Assembly: GCA_011109175.1 (NCBI GenBank)
Contig: RDEW01000008.1
Location: 67,228-131,227, forward strand
Direction: 5' to 3'
DNA: 64,000 nucleotides
Source: Dicyema japonicum
Taxonomy: Eukaryota; Dicyemida; Rhombozoa; Dicyemidae
Part shown: positions 4,810 to 64,000 of the stretch, one piece after another
Position numbering within the stretch: the first letter of the stretch is position 1
Layout: every line of letters begins with the position of its first letter
The notes under the pieces: generated by a model
The model's input: the letters and a program-made list of their open reading frames with translations, nothing else
Database searches by the model: none
What the model was told of the DNA's origin: nothing
Position numbers and translations under genes: made by a program

Positions 4810-6795
4810 CAGATCCCTACTTGCTCTAGAGAATTACCTAGTCTGATTATTTCTGAGGGGGACGTGAAAGATGCGATCCTCTCATTCGCCCCAAGCAGCA
4901 GTGGGGACTTGACGGACTCCGTCCAGGACACCTAAAAGACTTAATTGATCAGAATACGGGGAACTCTGGTGTTCGGCTATTATCGGCTATAACGAGGTTA
5001 ATCAACAGAATGCTTTCCGGAAGATTACCAGAAGCAATCCGTCATATTATGTTTTCCGCCAAGTTAATTGCCTTTGATAAATGTGGAGGAGGAATTCGTC
5101 CTATTGCTGTTGGGTTTGTTTTTCGTCGATTGGCTTCTAAACTTGCTAGCAGAGCAATCCTTCCGATGCTTGTCAAACAACTGCGACCAACCCAAGTAGG
5201 GGTCGGTACTCCTGGTGGATGTGAGGCGGCGGTTCATGCCGTTCGGATGTTTACTGGAAACAGAACGAACATGCCTTGTGTGGTCCTCAAGATTGACATA
5301 AAAAACGCCTTCAATACCATACGGCGCGATGTAATTTTGGAAGATTGTCTTACCCATTACCCGTCTATATATAATTATGTTCATTGTTCGTATGGAAAAC
5401 CGTCCAGTCTTGTACATGGGAAATACTTCATTCCCTCGTCGTGTGGGTTCAACAAGGAGACCCACTAGGACCGGCATTGTTCTGCCTCGGTGTCGACCGT
5501 GTCATGAGATGCCTTACTACTCCGCTGAACGTGTGGTATTTGGATGATTGCACCCTGGGAGGTCATCCTAACAATGTATATGACTGTCTACAGAGATTAC
5601 TAACCAATTGGATACGCTTGGTTTAAAGCTAAACGCATCCAAATGCGAAATTGTTAATTATGGATTCTCCCGATATGAATGGAATCGGATCCTATTAATG
5701 TTTCGGGGGATTATTCCTAAAATATCGGAAATCGAGCCGGATCATTTGGAAATACTTGGATGCCCTCTGGCTGAAACTGGAATTAACGACACTCTGTTGG
5801 CTAAAGAACAGCAACTAAGAAAAACTTTTTTACGCCTTGGGATGCTGGATGCACATACCTCTCTTTTTCTCATGAAAAACGCTTTATCCACGCAGAAATT
5901 AAATTACGTCCTTCGAGGAGCTCCATGTTACCTGAAAATGCAACAACTCGGGACGATTGACTCCCTATTCCGGTCTACGACCGAACGTATTACTAATGTC
6001 GAATTCGACGAACAAGGATGGGAACAAGCAACCTTGCCCGTTCGCTTTGGTGGACTCGGAATTCTCTCACCATCTGATTTAGCACACCCGGCATATCAAT
6101 CCTCATTGGACTCCAATCAGAATTTGATCATGATGATTCTCCAGCTCCAATCAGAGTCGTCAAAGATCGAAAATTTGGTACACCCTAAAGTCAAACAACC
6201 CGGGCAAAGACACCTTTATGAGTAGGATAAATACGAGAGGCTTTTGAAAATATCTGACCAACACCGACGAGCCTGTCTTTTAACTGCAAGATGCGAGTGG
6301 AGCGGGGCTTGGATCAATGCCCTACCATTGGAAACGTGGGAACTCACCTAGACGATGAAACGGTCCGCACCGGAGTCTCCATCAGACTTGGATTGAAAGT
6401 TTGTCAACCCCATGAGTGCCGATGCGGCCGGAAGGTCGACTGCTATGGACATCATGCCCTTTCTTGTCGAAAAAGCGCAGGTCGATTCGCTAGACACAAG
6501 GCTATAAATGAAGTGGTGAAGCGCGCCCTCGAGTTGGCGGGATACCCATCCATTCTAGAGCCAACGGGCTTGAGTAGGGATGATGGGAAGCGACCCGATG
6601 GAATTACTGTCTTCCCCTTCTCTCGGGGCAAATGCTTAATTTGGGATGCTGCCTGTACTGACAGCTTTTCCCAGTCGAAACTTTTGAGGTCGGCAATGAA
6701 AGCGGGAGAGGCCGCCCGTTTATATGAAAACTCAAAAATAAAAAAATACAGCAGCCTCCTAAACCGTTTCCATGTACAGCCAGTGGTCATCTAGA
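4810..6795 (+). pseudogene. RLE-type (R2/NeSL/HERO-like) non-LTR retrotransposon: RT plus endonuclease, frameshifted
   Basis: Reverse transcriptase domain: KIDIKNAFNTIRRD (motif with catalytic Asp, about 5293-5335), QQGDPLGPALF (about 5453-5490) and WYLDDCTLGG (catalytic YLDD, about 5536-5565). The thumb follows with LPVRFGGLGILSPSDLAHPA (about 6035-6095). The C-terminus carries CRCGRKVDCYGHHALSC, a Cys/His finger, and then GKRPDGITVFPF...LIWDAACTD, the PD-(D/E)XK core of the restriction-like endonuclease, ending near 6794. Frames change near 5455, 5610 and 6225, so it is dead. Elements of this class integrate by target-primed reverse transcription. Neither a full 5' end nor a poly(A) tail is evident. 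Confidence 0.85.
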
Positions 6796-8337: not shown

Positions 8338-9439
8338 CTAAGAATCATCAAACTCCACTTCTCCGTGAACCCTGATTCTATACAAACAGGTATATCTGTC
8401 ATTCCCATAATTACTAGTAAACTCAAACTTGAGAATACTCGTCGTTATTGGTTTCTTACAATAATGCAACAGGTACCTCCACCTCGAAGAACTGAATAGT
8501 CGGGAACTTATCGTCCACCAAATACTCGTACTCACCAACCAAATCAGGAAGACTGTCTACCTCCGATATCATAGAAAACACGGAAAACGTCCTCGGGGCT
8601 GATTTCTGGTCCATGGAAGAAACCAGGCGACTGTGCGCGTGCTCATAGCTTAATCCAGTCACTGTGATCGACCCCCTGAGTCTGATTATCACAAAGCCAG
8701 AGGTCCCATTCATGGCCCAACAACTCCAGGCCAATTGCCAGGCTAAAATCAATAACCAGTCAAACTGTGATGATGCCACGTGGGTCAGAATATCTCTTAT
8801 TTGATAGAAACCCCATAAACGAATATGCCTCATAGTAACCCTCGAACGACGGGGAGTTCGATAAAATCACTCCACCACCCGTTACTACTGCGAAATCGGC
8901 TCTCCCTGTTTTGTCTCCGTCATATTTGGCTATGGCAGCCTCAATTTTATCGTCGATGTACTGAAGTGGAGTGAAAATATTACTTTTGAGTATATTTTGT
9001 TCGACGGGAGAGGCCAAACTGACCACATCTGCGTTCTTTTCGACCTTTTTTAGTCTGTCCTCGAACATTTGGCTGGTTGATCGACAGACCTGGTTCTGTC
9101 TGTTTAATTCCGCAATCTGACGTTTCAGGTCGTAGATTTCACCGAAGAGTTCCATAATCCGACTCTCATTACTGATCTTAACTTTGGAGACCACATAATG
9201 ATCCACCAACTGACTGAATGAGTTAAATTTGATGAAGTTTTCCCCAAAGTAGACTTGAGATGAGTATACGACTCCGGCAATGGCCAGGATGACAAATGCC
9301 AGAAGCCAGAAAGTCGAGGACTTAAATTTATTCCTGATTTGAACATTAAAGAGTACAAGAAATTGAGGAAGGACAGTCTACTTAGTGAGCCGTCGAGTTC
9401 TCGGACATAGTAGGAGTCGGAAACTGAGTACCTTGACAT
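8338..9439 (-). CDS. SUN-domain protein (inner nuclear membrane LINC component), three ultrashort introns
   Basis: SUN proteins span the inner nuclear membrane and bind KASH peptides. Start ATG at 9439 (MSRYSVSDSYYV); an in-frame ATG at 9544 is an alternative. Introns: 9334-9356 (23 nt), 8743-8765 (23), 8455-8476 (22). A membrane segment (TFWLLAFVILAIAGVV) lies near residues 34-50, a coiled coil (MELFGEIYDLKRQIAELNRQ) follows, then the SUN domain: GRADFAVVTGGGVI, CWAMNGTSGFVIIRL, FSVFSMISEVDSLPDLVG, and the diagnostic end GNDRYTCLYRIRVHGEV. Without the lesion it would be about 340 aa, short for the family. At 8714-8742 the conserved PGNCWAF-like motif is interrupted: the frame reads PGNW, then resumes at CWAM after a shift equivalent to 11 extra nt. 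This is either pseudogenization or an assembly error. Confidence 0.85.
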
Positions 9440-21907: not shown

Positions 21908-24241
21908 TTAATGGTCATTAATGTAGTTCTGGGATTATAAAAATGACAACTTTGTAATTTCTTCGAAAAATCTCGGCATAGTGATGAATCTCTTTCATAT
22001 TGGATAGTAAGCATACATTCTCAATTTTTATGATATTGTCATGTGAAATTAACTTGCCCATAAATACACGTGCTAATGTAAAAATAAAAAATAACGTTCT
22101 AATGTTGTTAAATTAGCACATTTCCAGACAGCCTAAAGCCAAATTCGCTCATCTAAGTTATCATTGAATAAATTTATCGTTGACATTAGTGATCTACCAT
22201 AAAAATAGAAAATAATCTTTTATTGAATTCACATTGGGCTTCATAAGGATATTGTCTTATAAAGCGAACAAGTTTATTCAGAATGAGTTCTTGTGGATTC
22301 AGATCACTGAAGTCAGAATTAATAAATATTGGCAAAACATCATTAGGATCACTCAACAACAGGCAGAGAGAACTCAAAATTAAATAGCGATGATGAAAAT
22401 TGAGCAAAACGGAATCCATGTCTCTTTTAAGTAAAGCAACAAAATTACAATAAATAATTTATTAGACCGCTCCTTCTTATTAATTTTCTAGCCTTTGCAA
22501 ATTTAGTCAGATTATCCAAAAATAAGTCAAGTGGATAAAAAATATAATCGCATAAAAAATATAATTCGAGAAAATAATAAAGATGTTCAATACCGCCAAG
22601 ATCAACAAACAGATTAACATTCTTTTCATTTTCGTCTGAGTAAAATATTTCAATTACCTAAAAGATATTCCAACGTGTTGAGAGAAGCGTATAAAGGAGT
22701 TTTGAATATTTTAAGAGGCTCAAGAAAAAACTAAAATTATTCTGTTTTAAACCTTGACAAGGCCGGAATAGCCAAGATAGGCAAGAAATTCAATGCTCAT
22801 ACTTTTCATGATAGAGCGACAACAACCAAACAAATCATTTTCGAAGTCATACCAAGAATCCATTTGTGTTAACATGAATGACAGTGCAGGAAACTAAAAT
22901 GAGTAATAACTAACGAATATAGATATCTCCCAGGGTTTTAAACATAACAACAACTGAATGCATTCCACAGAAAACTAAAAATTTAAATTATTGATACATT
23001 ACGTGCATCATGAGTACCATCAATAAACTCAAGAAAAATGTCATAAATAATACTAAGGATAATTTCCACTCATACCAGCTATTAGCATAGGAAATTGCCT
23101 GGTTATTGATTATGTTAATTAAAATTATTCTAAAATAGAAATATTAAATTACATAATGAAGAGGAGACATTTTTTATAATTTTCACTCTTACGAATAAAC
23201 TAAACCTAAGTCTTCAAAATACTTTCAAAAATTTATTTAATAAGTTATTTTGAATTCTGAAATTCATTCGAGAAATCTCTGCAAAAGTTTCACTTGCTAA
23301 TTTTTTCTTATTTACGAAATGTAAAACAGACCTGACAAGGTTATTTAAAATTGATTCCGGATTATTCTATGTTATTTTATCAAATGTACCGAATTGGTTA
23401 TATTTTTATTAAAATTTAAAATTGTATAAAAATGAAATTTTTTCAATCCCTTTTTTGCAAAATGGCTAAAATTGTTCAAATAAATAACTCAGATATGTTG
23501 CTTAATATTTCCTCGTCGATAAAATATCCTGATAAATCTACAAAAGTAAGATTTTCGGTCTTTTTAAATAATGAGATGAAATTACAGTCACATCCCTCCA
23601 AGTATCCATCACTTGTATGCACAAAATGACTAGATTTGAGGGAAAATCAACTTTAAAGACTCCGGACTGTTAATGCTTGCAGCAAATTCCGTAAAATCAG
23701 TAATTAAGACATTGTGAAAATTTACACGTTCCAGTTTATCAATTATTTTTAGTGTACTATTATACATAGTCGTCGTTCTGTTTACTCCAAGGAGTTTGAG
23801 AAATTTTATATTTTTAAATCCAGTCATGAATAGCTGATGTAGCAAATCTGGGTCATCATAATGCAAGAGTGTGAATGATTTGACCTCATTCGGGGAAAAT
23901 GCCAATATAGGATTCTTTGTTGTTGAAATAATCCTTCTTATTGTAATATTGGATAAATTTGGATAAACTTGAATCATCTTAACAACGTCGTTAACGTCAA
24001 CATCTTCACCAGTCAATTCAATGTAAAAAATTGACCTGTTTACTACATCTGAAATTTTATATAAACTTGAATCTTGAAAAGATAGGTTTTTCTTAGGACG
24101 TGAATTCAAATATTTCAGTTCATTAAGGATTCTTTTGGAAAACATTTTTTTAGACTTGTCGTTTAATTTTATATATTTTTTATCTTCAAAGTTTGTTCGA
24201 ATATTATTAATGCATAATGCATATAATGAAGGTGTTTCCAT
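21908..24241 (-). CDS. ZYG11-family CUL2 substrate receptor (LRR + armadillo), 14 introns mostly 21-25 nt
   Basis: ZYG11 proteins recruit substrates to CUL2-Elongin B/C ligases. ATG 24241 (METPSLYALCINNI), stop 21908-21910. Inferred introns: 23630-23651, 23466-23488, 23367-23389, 23200-23222, 23130-23152, 23053-23075, 22975-22997, 22894-22914, 22731-22752, 22636-22657, 22424-22448, 22133-22197 (65 nt, the exception), 22073-22095, 21929-21950. The exons sum to 1974 nt = 658 codons, in frame throughout. The N-terminus resembles a VHL-box/LRR region (NLSNITIRRI, ENLTFVDLSGYFIDEEIL). The C-terminal half aligns with human ZYG11B as I recall it: NTLEYLLDENEKNVNLFVDL then GGIEHLYYFL, DLFLDNLTKFAKARKLIRRS, NKLVRFIRQYPYEAQCEFNK, AVWKCANLTTLE. 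657 aa versus about 744 in human. Orthology needs a profile search; the gene structure itself is strongly supported by frame closure. Confidence 0.87.
22133..22197 (-). other. 65-nt intron of the ZYG11-like gene (outlier length)
   Basis: GT at 22197/22196 and AG at 22134/22133. Removing 65 nt joins NKRLFSIFM to AVWKCANLTTLE in phase and makes the whole gene divisible by three. The interval still contains a frame (FNDNLDERIWL) resembling the family sequence just before AVW, ending in TAG. It may therefore be an exon now skipped because of that stop. Confidence 0.5.
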
Positions 24242-24378
24242 TTTATAATAAAAATTAAATATATTTTTTGATCTTATATTTTTTATCTTCAAAGTTTGTT
24301 CGAATATTATTAATGCATAATGCATATAATGAAGGTGTTTCCATTCTATAATAAAAATTAAATATATTTTTTGATCTT
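24173..24378. repeat. 103-bp tandem duplication covering the ZYG11-like start codon
   Basis: Two adjacent copies differ at very few positions (for example TTTTATAATA versus TCTATAATAA after the CCAT). Each includes the minus-strand ATG and the first 20 or so codons. The second copy lies upstream and enters the first in another frame (minus-strand ORF beginning MHYALIIFEQTLK), so transcription may meet two start codons. Confidence 0.85.
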
Positions 24379-30779: not shown

Positions 30780-31262
30780 TGTTGGATCGATGGATGATTA
30801 TCGGGCCAAGCTGAGAGTCTTATTGAAATTCGCCGGGCCTCCTTGACGAAAACAGCTTGAGGATCGGGGTGTCACTGCGCCTAGGATTGGACATGTGCCA
30901 GAGACACAAATGCTGTTGCGGCGGGGACGTTGATAAGAAAGGATTACATCCACTCTCTTGCCGACTGAGTGCTGGTCGAGCCCCACGTTACGCAGCCCTC
31001 AATGACATCATCTTTCGAGCCCTCAAGGCTGCGGGATTTCCGGCCCAATTGGAATCATTGGGCTTAGACAGAGGCGACGGGAAGAAGCCGGATGGAATGA
31101 AGTTATTCTCATACTCCTACGGAAAATCACTTGTCTCGGACGCAAAGTGTGTGGACACCTTCTCAGGAGCCAGATTGCTGACGGCGAAGCAGCCGACCAG
31201 GCGGAGGTCAAGAAGATCCATAAGTACGAGTCCATTACCATTTCGCCCCCATTGCTAAGAGA
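30780..31262 (+). pseudogene. RLE domain fragment of an R2/NeSL-like retrotransposon
   Basis: GVSLRLGLDMCQRHKCCCGG ... GLHPLSCRLSAGRAPRYAAL carries the Cys/His finger; GKKPDGMKLFSYSYGKSLVS then DAKCVDTFSG is the PD-(D/E)XK core. It is the same family as 6290-6794 but clearly diverged. A frame change near 31190 passes to ADQAEVKKIHKYESIT. The RT part is absent. Confidence 0.75.
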
Positions 31263-49776: not shown

Positions 49777-51679
49777 CAGTCGAACCCCGCCCCAATAAAA
49801 CCCCCGCCTTGAGGCACCCTCGCTTTTTGGGGCGATTTTATTTTCTAGTACATTTTCCATTAATAATTTCCAAATTTGGAAATTATTAAAACCCCAGTAT
49901 GGGGCACTTTACTAATTTATTTTAATATTTTATTACATAATATTATTTTGAATAATATTATTTTTGAACACGTGATAATTGTCTTTGTGTAATGCCTTCC
50001 AAAATTTCTATTGAAACAAAAATTAAAATTGCAAAGTGTCTACAAACTTCTTCTGAAAGAGAAGTTGCAAAAAAATTCAAGATAAGCAAAGGCACTATTT
50101 CCCGAATCAAAAAAAACATTTCTTCTTTCATTAATACCGGATCAGTCATTTCAAGATTAGTTCAAATAGATGAAGTTAAACCAGTTTCTAATGAAGTCAA
50201 TCAATTTGAAAAACTTGACGAATTAACTTTTAATGCTTTTCGTCGTTTGAGGGATGATTCCTTTTCTATTTCGGGTACTTTAATCAAAGCCATCGCGAAA
50301 AAAATATCGACAAAATTGAATTATTCAACATCTTTTAAAGCCTCAAACGGTTGGTTAGACAGATTTAAGAAGAGACATGATCTGGTTTTTAAAGCCATTT
50401 GTGGTGAAAAAAATTCAGCAGATAAAAGTAATTTGGCAAATTTTTTCTTTCAATTCGATAATTTGTTGAAAACTTATGGTCATGAAAATATTTTTAACTG
50501 TGATGAAACATCATTGTATGTTAAAAAATTTCCTTCAAGATCTTATGTCGAATCTATAGAAACATGTCATGGTACAAAATTCAGTAAAGAAAGAGTAACA
50601 GTTCTCCTTTGCTGTAATGCAGCAGGAAATAAATTAAGACCCCTTGTTATTGGAAAATACAAATCACCACGTTGTATGAAAAGTTTGCTTAATTATATTT
50701 TAACATAGATTTTGATTGTGAAAAATTCGGTATTTTATATGCAGCGTCAAAAAATTCCTGGATGAATAGAGAAATTTTCAAAATGTGGCTTTCAAAGATT
50801 AACGACGACTTTCTCTCACAAGATAGAAAAATACTTTTAATAATGCTACATGCCATTATTTATTGGAATACTCAAATTTTAAATTGTTTTTTCTTCCGAA
50901 AAACACAACATCTTTGATTCAACCTTTAGACATGGGTATAATAAAGTGTTTTAAAGTACATAAACTTCCTAATGGATTTTATGATCAATTTGGAAGAAGA
51001 TACAACAATTAATCTTAAATCTTTGAAAAATATAGATATGCGACAGATTATGGTACTTGTTAAAAAAGCGTGGATGGAAGTTAAAGAAGCAACAATAATT
51101 AATTGTTGGAAGAAAATTGAGGAAAATAGAGAAGAATCAGTTGAAGATAAAAATTGTGGGGAAGAACTCCTGGAAGAAATAGTATCTGAAGTAATATCTG
51201 AAGAAAACGAAGATCTAGTCAAGAGTTGCGAGTTTTATAATGGAGTTGACACAGAGGACAAAACAACGATATCAGAAACTTATGAAATGATGGATAAGTT
51301 AGAAAATGTAGCTCAAAATACATCTTTTGAGACATTACAAAAATATTATGAGTTTAGATTTCAACTTGGAAAAGATCTAAGAAATAAAAAAAATTTGAAA
51401 TTGACTGATTATTTCAAAAAAATGCTTTAAAAATAATGATTTGTTAATTAATAAAAATCGAATAAAAAACATAGAATAAAAATCTATCAAACTATAGAGC
51501 AAAAAATCACAACTTATTTTATAAACACTTTGGAAGAAGTGAAGAAGTTCCTTTTTCGCAAAGTAAACAAAAATTTAAGTTAAATCAACCATAAATCAAT
51601 AGTTTGAACCAAACCCCGGTTTTGGAGGGCACCCCCGCTTTTTGGGGCACTTTGATGCCCCACCCCGGGGTTTCGACTC
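49777..51679 (+). mobile_element. pogo/Tigger-like DNA transposon, nearly complete, with TIRs and TA duplication
   Basis: The left end CAGTCGAACCCCGCCCCAAT (49777) and the right end, reading inward GAGTCGAAACCCCGGGGTGG (from 51679), are imperfect inverted repeats. Both are flanked by TA (49775-49776 and 51680-51681), the target duplication of the Tc1/mariner superfamily. The ends contain GC-rich CCCCGCTTTTTGGGGC-type blocks quite unlike the A+T-rich interior. The transposase lies inside on the same strand. Confidence 0.9.
49992..51430 (+). pseudogene. pogo/Tigger transposase, two frame breaks
   Basis: ATG 49992. HTH (EREVAKKFKISKGTISRIKK, residues about 18-37), CENP-B-type second DNA-binding domain (SFKASNGWLDRFKKRHDLVF, about 115-134), then the DDE domain beginning IFNCDETSLYVKKFPSR with the first catalytic Asp; the first frame stops at 50708. 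Conserved sequence resumes in another frame with FKLFFLPKNTTSLIQPLDMG IIKCFK (about 50878-50955), and from 50972 in a third frame (TINLKSLKNIDMRQIMVLVK KAW) to 51430. The DNA(P/A)xH segment (about 50843-50860) is degraded. The transposase is therefore probably inactive, though its ends look recent. Confidence 0.85.
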
Positions 51680-62852: not shown

Positions 62853-64000
62853 TCAACCATCTACTGCAATCCCCAGGTATTTCAGGGATGAAACTCTCGG
62901 TGTACGAAGAGTGTAGGGCTCTTTCTGATGCCTACCCGGCCTGCTATCCTCAAGTAACTGGATTTTTCCGTGGAGAGTTTCATGCCTCTCCGATTGCACC
63001 AACCCTGAACTTTGTCGATAAAAGCTCCTAGTCGCCGCTCTGAGAGGTATGCCTTCAGAGACGAATCCAGGATTAAAGATGTCATCCGCGTATATCATCA
63101 GCTTGGTCCTGACGTCTTGCGGTGACGGAAAATCTTCCATAAATACGTTGAATAACAGGGGGCTTAGAATAGATCCCTGTGGCACTCCCCTTTTAAACGA
63201 TATACCATCAGAATATCTTCCACCGACTACCACGTGAGATATCCTCCCAGTCAAATAGTCTTTCAACCATAGGAACATTTGTTTAGATATCTTTGATCGT
63301 ACAAGTTGACAAAATAAGGCTTTGTGCCATGCACTGTCGAACGCCTTTGAGATGTCAAGGCAAACAAGGCTCAACTGCTTTTCTTCTCAAATGTATTTGT
63401 AATTTCGTAGTTTAGTGAGTATACAGACGGAAATCCATTGGTAAGGTCGTAGAAAGTTACTTTCTTCTATAAACCGATTCAATCTCTTGAATACAATCCG
63501 TACCATAATCTTTGATGTAGAACATAAAAGGCTTATTGGCCTATAACTGAGAGGATCCTTCCTCGACTTTCCAGGTTTGAGGATCATCTTCACAATAGAA
63601 CGCTTCCATAACGGAGAAACATGTCTGAGCATAAAACTCGAGTTATACATCTTTTGTAGAACAAATAGTAGTTCATCAGACCCTTCTTTAAACATAATCA
63701 TGGGAATGCTATCGAATCCAGGAGCCTTGTTTTTGCACTCGCGTATAGCAGTTCTGACTTCTGCCAGAGTGATTTCCTTTACCAAACTTTCCAGATCGCC
63801 CATAGAGTATTCCATAGAATTAGATATCTCCTGAAAATTTTCAGGTATAATACTAACAGGGTCAACTCTTTGTATATTTCCAGTTGTTTTCTGAATACCG
63901 AAAGTACTCTTTCCAAGGAAATTGTCCTTCCCTCTTGATAGGCCAGCACAATATTTTTTGCCTTTAAATTTCCATCAGTAAGCCTTCTGTACATTTTCCA
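62853..64000 (-). pseudogene. Jockey-like non-LTR retrotransposon RT, runs off the window
   Basis: Minus strand: EITLAEVRTAIRECKNKAPG FDSIPMIMF (fingers), ILKPGKSRKDPLSYRPISLL CSTSKIM (motif 1-2), then after a frame break at about 63375-63420 LVCLDISKAFDSAWHKALF (catalytic Asp), RGVPQGSILSPLLFNVFMED F, and LMIYADDIFNPGF with an intact YADD. A further frame with CNRRGMKLSTEKS and upstream linker fragments (63779-63994) complete it. The 5' end lies beyond 64000. The catalytic boxes are well kept, so this is among the younger RT copies here. Confidence 0.85.

Follow-up and report, generated by a model that had tools for sequence, protein, structure and literature searches.

A probably decaying member of a large ZYG11/ZER1-like gene family with very short introns in Dicyema japonicum

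Does the minus strand of the window, the whole 64-kb stretch of Dicyema japonicum DNA analysed here, carry a complete animal gene interrupted by 14 introns, thirteen of them very short, as a first-pass annotation proposed? A chain of intervals that is picked because it yields an open frame can mask genuine damage, as this locus shows. The answer given here is built on comparison with related loci of the same genome. The reading that we consider very likely is that the locus is one damaged copy of a large ZYG11/ZER1-like family in a dicyemid genome. Its tiny introns would be spliced normally, working copies of the family would probably be CRL2-type receptors, and the copy in the window is probably a recent pseudogene.

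Intron positions shared by related loci

Between the ATG at 24241 and the stop at 21908, removal of 14 GT-AG intervals leaves 1974 nt, or 658 codons including the stop, and a protein of 657 aa. Along the chain 24241-21908, the intervals measure 22, 23, 23, 23, 23, 23, 23, 21, 22, 22, 25, 65, 23 and 22 nt. This reproduces exactly the thirteen intervals of 21-25 nt, the single one of 65 nt and the frame that had been annotated. If left in place, 12 of the 14 intervals introduce an in-frame stop, and the remaining two (23075-23053 and 21950-21929) change the frame, which agrees with the claim that each removes a stop or a frame change. A fewest-introns search without guidance gives other chains of 12 or 13 introns, including 46-nt and 28-nt intervals; these were set aside, and the annotated chain is favoured because relatives of the locus back it.

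The relatives come from a search of the 657-aa protein against its own genome (64.67 Mb in 191 contigs), which returned at least 82 matching pieces at E ≤ 0.01, with 67 of 335 candidates scored. Grouped by hand, these pieces fall into 66 places including the window, and 60 of them, again with the window, were fetched. An additional PF22964 piece at C152:97354-97524 lies outside the 66 places, so the family is probably larger. Two nearly identical loci, L064 (at the tip of contig C155) and L065 (within C159), may stem from a single locus that was assembled, and so counted, twice. Introns in the 59 relatives were called automatically with our own protein-to-DNA aligner, which was given the protein and was blind to intron positions. 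It modelled 686 short introns, and 544 of these fall exactly at one of 13 window positions, in the same phase. The features of the locus, with the fraction of covered relatives that share each intron's exact position and phase, are:

21908..24241, minus strand: family copy, ZYG11/ZER1-like, from the ATG at 24241 to the family stop position at 21908
23652..24241, minus strand: exon 1, 196 full codons plus 2 nt
23630..23651, minus strand: intron 1, 22 nt, phase 2, exact in 49/57
23466..23488, minus strand: intron 2, 23 nt, phase 2, exact in 40/57
23367..23389, minus strand: intron 3, 23 nt, phase 0, exact in 50/57
23200..23222, minus strand: intron 4, 23 nt, phase 0, exact in 50/56
23130..23152, minus strand: intron 5, 23 nt, phase 2, exact in 22/55 and within 4 aa in 34/55, a weaker class
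23053..23075, minus strand: intron 6, 23 nt, phase 2, exact in 53/55
22975..22997, minus strand: intron 7, 23 nt, phase 0, exact in 13/55 and within 4 aa in 41/55, with poor alignment around it
22894..22914, minus strand: intron 8, 21 nt, phase 0, exact in 50/55
22731..22752, minus strand: intron 9, 22 nt, phase 0, exact in 49/54
22636..22657, minus strand: intron 10, 22 nt, phase 1, exact in 42/53
22424..22448, minus strand: intron 11, 25 nt, phase 2, exact in 43/53
22073..22095, minus strand: intron 12 (13th interval of the chain), 23 nt, phase 1, exact in 40/50
21929..21950, minus strand: intron 13 (14th interval of the chain), 22 nt, phase 0, exact in 39/39

Intron position and phase are kept in relatives down to 34-39% amino acid identity, the most distant standing at 34%, and only introns 5 and 7 have exact matches in fewer than half. 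At the exact positions, lengths in relatives run from 18 to 29 nt with a median of 23, and 143 of 540 are divisible by 3. Divided by 3, the lengths leave every possible remainder, and the flanking frame stays intact. Most introns at family positions (585 of 619) cannot code, since 447 have a length not divisible by 3 and a further 138 hold an in-frame stop, leaving 34 that are readable as coding. Across all family models, 573 of 632 introns measure 21-25 nt, and the full modelled spread is 18-32 nt under a set limit of 32 nt. Thirteen of the 14 annotated intervals combine the GT-AG ends, conserved position and phase, and intact exon frame of U2-type introns, which is strong evidence that they are genuine spliceosomal introns; the fourteenth, of 65 nt, falls away, as relatives code through it.

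A family gene typically has some 14 spliceosomal introns, each around 21-28 nt long and in a set place, and ordinary GT-AG splicing would remove these 21-25-nt introns from the RNA in a lineage with genome-wide intron shrinkage. Introns of this size can be checked without RNA through conservation of their positions in about 60 gene copies. The several hundred natural near-minimal variants also provide material on which letters the spliceosome needs.

Similar introns occur in other genes. A SUN-domain gene on the minus strand of the window, at 8338-9439 (PF07738, E 1.3e-27), contains introns of 23, 25 and 22 nt. The domain match encloses the 22-nt intron, at 8476, and the 23-nt and 25-nt introns were placed by the fewest-introns path. 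Read by eye, 24-nt phase-0 introns appear in a tubulin gene (L082), which we take to be of the beta type, and in a Pax-type paired box (L081, C13:1407700-1408150). The latter also shows a frame change near ETGCFER/IGGSKPRV without explanation, so this locus may be imperfect; a homeodomain match lies close by at C13:1407366. Homeodomain matches number 67 in this genome and PAX matches fall at four sites, which mark it as an animal genome and uphold the annotated animal origin of the gene. As a genome-wide intron marker, the pattern GTAAGT...TTTAG proved useless, with 23 matches against 155 for a reversed control.

Published data fit this picture. Introns in Dicyema Pax6 and Zic genes averaged 26.2 nt in 2007 (n=16), and the Pax6 paired domain of dicyemids carries a phase-0 intron (PMC2222250); a median of 27 bp was given for Dicyema sp. 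in 2019 (PMC6543705). The D. japonicum genome paper reports 67.5 Mb, 36.7% G+C and a mean intron of 38.2 bp (PMC6736024), compared with 64.67 Mb here and a window mean of 36.8% G+C. The loci studied here thus share the dicyemid traits of very short introns in conserved genes, a small genome and a G+C content of about 37%, and their very short, uniform GT-AG introns, including the short phase-0 intron in the paired domain, resemble those described in these sources. The family median of 23 nt lies slightly under the published 26.2-nt mean and 27-bp median, a comparison across other genes and counting methods that is not like-for-like. A dicyemid fits these data best, and on that reading introns of about this size are known for the group and are not new.

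Elsewhere in the window, an Rfam scan of the 64 kb found nothing. Open frames that by eye resemble reverse transcriptases or transposase-related proteins lie at 4857-6794, 30827-31258 and 49968-51430 on the plus strand and at 25096-24959 and 62853-63974 on the minus strand.

Relation to ZYG11 and ZER1

The annotated likeness to ZYG11 does not emerge from the 657-aa protein alone, which gives nothing beyond one spurious match in Pfam and no match in the PDB. A single-sequence search of a large protein set (7,999 and 7,615 candidates) likewise has no match at the cut-off; because eukaryotes may be sparse in that set, the null says little about absence. The likeness appears with a profile of nine family proteins searched against solved structures. 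Some 230 residues of the C-terminal half match the ZER1 ARM domain (E 4.5e-13), and ZYG11B is matched at E 5.6e-8. PF22964, the ZER1-like family, is found in 8 of the 9 members (best E 4.2e-12), so that a ZER1-type C-terminal ARM domain is seen both in the profile and in individual members.

Homology in the ARM region is observed directly, and the question is how much of the receptor comes with it. The gene structure could be right and the family still be a general ARM-repeat family without a ligase role, its likeness to ZER1 reflecting the shared ARM-repeat fold only. We regard this as unlikely, though it has several points in its favour. The profile match is limited to the ARM half: against solved structures, the LRR and VHL-box parts give no profile match. 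The middle of the protein looks LRR-like by eye, and 1 of 9 members shows LRR_4 at E 0.83. Another ARM protein, outer dynein arm-docking complex subunit 2, ranks above ZYG11B at E 4.9e-9, and beta-catenin-like protein 1 appears at E 0.0035. A counterpart of the Cul2-box proline (P51 of ZYG11B) is not evident in most copies: 6 of 56 have a P in the stretch from query residue 24 to 45, a part not aligned to ZYG11B. Most residues of the degron pocket differ as well. Against this reading, the top 7 of 28 structure matches are all ZER1, the alignment keeps shared spacing along its roughly 230 residues, and PF22964 recurs across members. Additionally, a BC-box pattern lies within the first 14 residues in 50 of 56 loci; in the window copy it reads SLYALCINNI, at residues 5-14 in exon 1. 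In ZYG11B, L18 and C22 touch Elongin C, and their spacing equals that of L6 and C10 in the family, at the very N-terminus in both (PMC13201589).

The preferred reading remains that the family probably works like a ZYG11-type receptor. Working copies would be transcribed and spliced, and their proteins would probably recruit substrates to a ubiquitin ligase of the Cullin-2 type. The N-terminal BC box would dock on Elongin C, while the C-terminal ARM repeats would hold a target and present it for ubiquitination.

The degron pocket differs from that of ZER1. Five residues named for the ZER1 pocket are W552, N553, D556, N597 and E600, and alanine at W552, D556, N597 or E600 abolishes binding (PMC9741652). 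These residues were mapped through the alignment of the family profile with ZER1, whose spacing agrees with the published residue numbers. At the position of W552 the family has W in 5 of 54 loci, at N553 it has N in 1 of 54, and at N597 it has N in 27 of 53. D556 is the sole pocket residue of the five that is mostly kept (D in 44/54), whereas E600 is never retained (E in 0/53) and is replaced by K in 46/53. The charge of the pocket may have flipped: the acidic E600, which in ZER1 holds the N-terminal amine of the substrate, is mostly lysine while its acidic partner D556 stays. Across the 53-54 loci compared, most of these pocket residues are lost and, on this alignment, the family does not belong to the Gly/N-degron receptors in the sense of PMC9741652.

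The 65-nt interval and the state of the window copy

The 65-nt interval is where the annotated chain departs from the family. In 45 of 60 models, though not in the window copy, a short intron of 21-28 nt sits exactly at query position 589. The window retains its remnant, and further lesions lie beside it and at the start of the gene:

22133..22197, minus strand: 65-nt interval, overlapping the remnant intron and family coding sequence, and not an intron in relatives
22194..22216, minus strand: remnant of the short phase-2 intron of query position 589, its donor now AT rather than GT
22133..22135, minus strand: in-frame TAG at a site where 52 relatives show W (46), R (4) or L (2), never a stop
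24172..24377, minus strand: tandem duplication of 2 x 103 nt, 99% identical, in perfect register and spanning the start codon

The interval begins within the remnant intron, whose donor letters at 22216-22215 are AT rather than GT, and ends on the TAG at 22135-22133. In relatives the corresponding stretch is protein-coding and conserved; in L038 it reads SMKSTINLLNANTDERIWLWAVWTCANL. The first-pass annotation had named a conserved alignment that treats an interval as coding as the finding that would count against it, and for 22197-22133 such an alignment exists. When the 65-nt stretch is translated as coding, the window protein matches PF22964 at E 8.3e-4 and 18.5 bits, below the curated cut-off of 27; the 657-aa version, with the stretch spliced out, has no PF22964 match in Pfam. 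Judged against its relatives, the 65-nt interval 22197-22133 is not an intron.

The gene can consequently no longer be called complete, with the donor of a short intron lost, a TAG in the family's coding stretch and a duplication over the start codon. The nonsense codon falls about 56 codons ahead of the family's end. Upstream, the duplicate copy provides an additional ATG at 24344 with a 29-codon frame, and its 99% identity indicates that the duplication is recent. Together, the lost donor, the nonsense codon and the duplicated start codon make the window copy probably a recent pseudogene. The model of this copy has one frameshift and one stop, both at the 65-nt spot, and none elsewhere; the copy is still almost clean, and has probably lost its function.

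Alternatively, the window copy could be functional. After loss of the donor, the new TAG would double as an acceptor, so that splicing out 65 nt (22197-22133) would skip the damage, giving a 657-aa protein about 19 residues shorter in the ARM domain. The chain of 657 codons is indeed open, without any other frameshift or stop, and dN/dS against the nearest relative, L033, is 0.141/0.287, or about 0.49. That relative (C170:143593-147193) lies about 12 kb past the window's end on the opposite strand, and its model contains 7 frameshifts and 3 stops. However, a length of 65 nt is far beyond the modelled range of family introns, the stretch removed is a helix that bears the conserved DERIWLW motif, even the weak PF22964 match vanishes from the resulting protein, and the start-codon region is duplicated too. 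We hold this rescue to be improbable and keep to the reading of a recent pseudogene.

The short-intron part of the chain is beyond chance. The segment 23651-22198 was required to stay open using only intervals of 20-25 nt that start with GTA or GTT and end with TAG, CAG or AAG. The real segment permits such a path, with 11 introns; none of 300 dinucleotide shuffles does, with any number of introns, and their median reach is 32.5 nt. Among segments of the same length tiled over both strands of the window, with one frame per start, 1 of 180 permits a path, and since that one lies on the SUN-domain gene it counts as a genuine hit, not as background. With 20-25-nt introns alone, the frame of 24241-21908 fails to reach the stop, because the 65-nt interval is needed to jump the lost donor and the nonsense codon. 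The notion that the intervals are not introns and that the chain is an artefact of searching an AT-rich, frameshifted pseudogene is highly improbable: AT-rich DNA is rich in GT and AG and many relatives do bear real lesions, but the shuffles, the conservation of position and phase in distant relatives, the lengths in every residue modulo 3 and the like-sized introns in tubulin, Pax and SUN genes all stand against it.

Expansion, decay and comparison with known receptors

Many members of the family carry lesions. By automatic count, 4 of 60 models are full-length and lesion-free (L029, L048, L049 and L070); 8 carry one lesion, 38 carry two or more and 10 are partial. Such counts can only overstate the damage, since frameshifts are inserted by the aligner where relatives align poorly. 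L029 (C140:224216-227816) illustrates an intact copy: it encodes 668 aa, has 14 introns that measure 21-28 nt, and shows neither frameshifts nor stops. The median dN/dS over 384 family pairs is 0.59, but values close to 1 or higher occur among some close pairs, which points to weak constraint on part of the family. From these comparisons, the family looks fast-evolving and partly decayed. Outside the family list, ZER1-like matches at C137:1898292-1899157 seem to belong to a more conventional ZER1-like gene, which may be the ancestral-type receptor.

In the freely readable papers searched on gene family expansion in dicyemids, no report of this expansion turned up, and none was found that treats ZYG11 together with dicyemids. 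The words "ubiquitin" and "zyg" are absent from the main text of the D. japonicum genome paper, which gives 5,012 predicted genes (PMC6736024). The expanded receptor family is the less expected part of the result, while the intron size is known biology. It gives a starting point for asking why so small a gene set devotes dozens of loci to a single protein type.

As a tentative proposal, which we would not yet call likely, dozens of ZYG11/ZER1-type receptors with a charge-flipped degron pocket could form a new, diversified ligase set. Such a set would no longer read Gly/N-degrons and would perhaps be aimed at the animal's own proteins or those of its cephalopod host, under fast gene birth and decay. 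The CRL2 substrate receptors ZER1 and ZYG11B are encoded by few genes, whereas the family described here has dozens of copies. ZYG-11-like genes have also expanded in nematodes, zeel-1 being an example. What these nematode genes and the dicyemid family share is a ZYG11-like family copied past its ancestral receptor, and this likeness does not imply a toxin-antidote role for the dicyemid genes.
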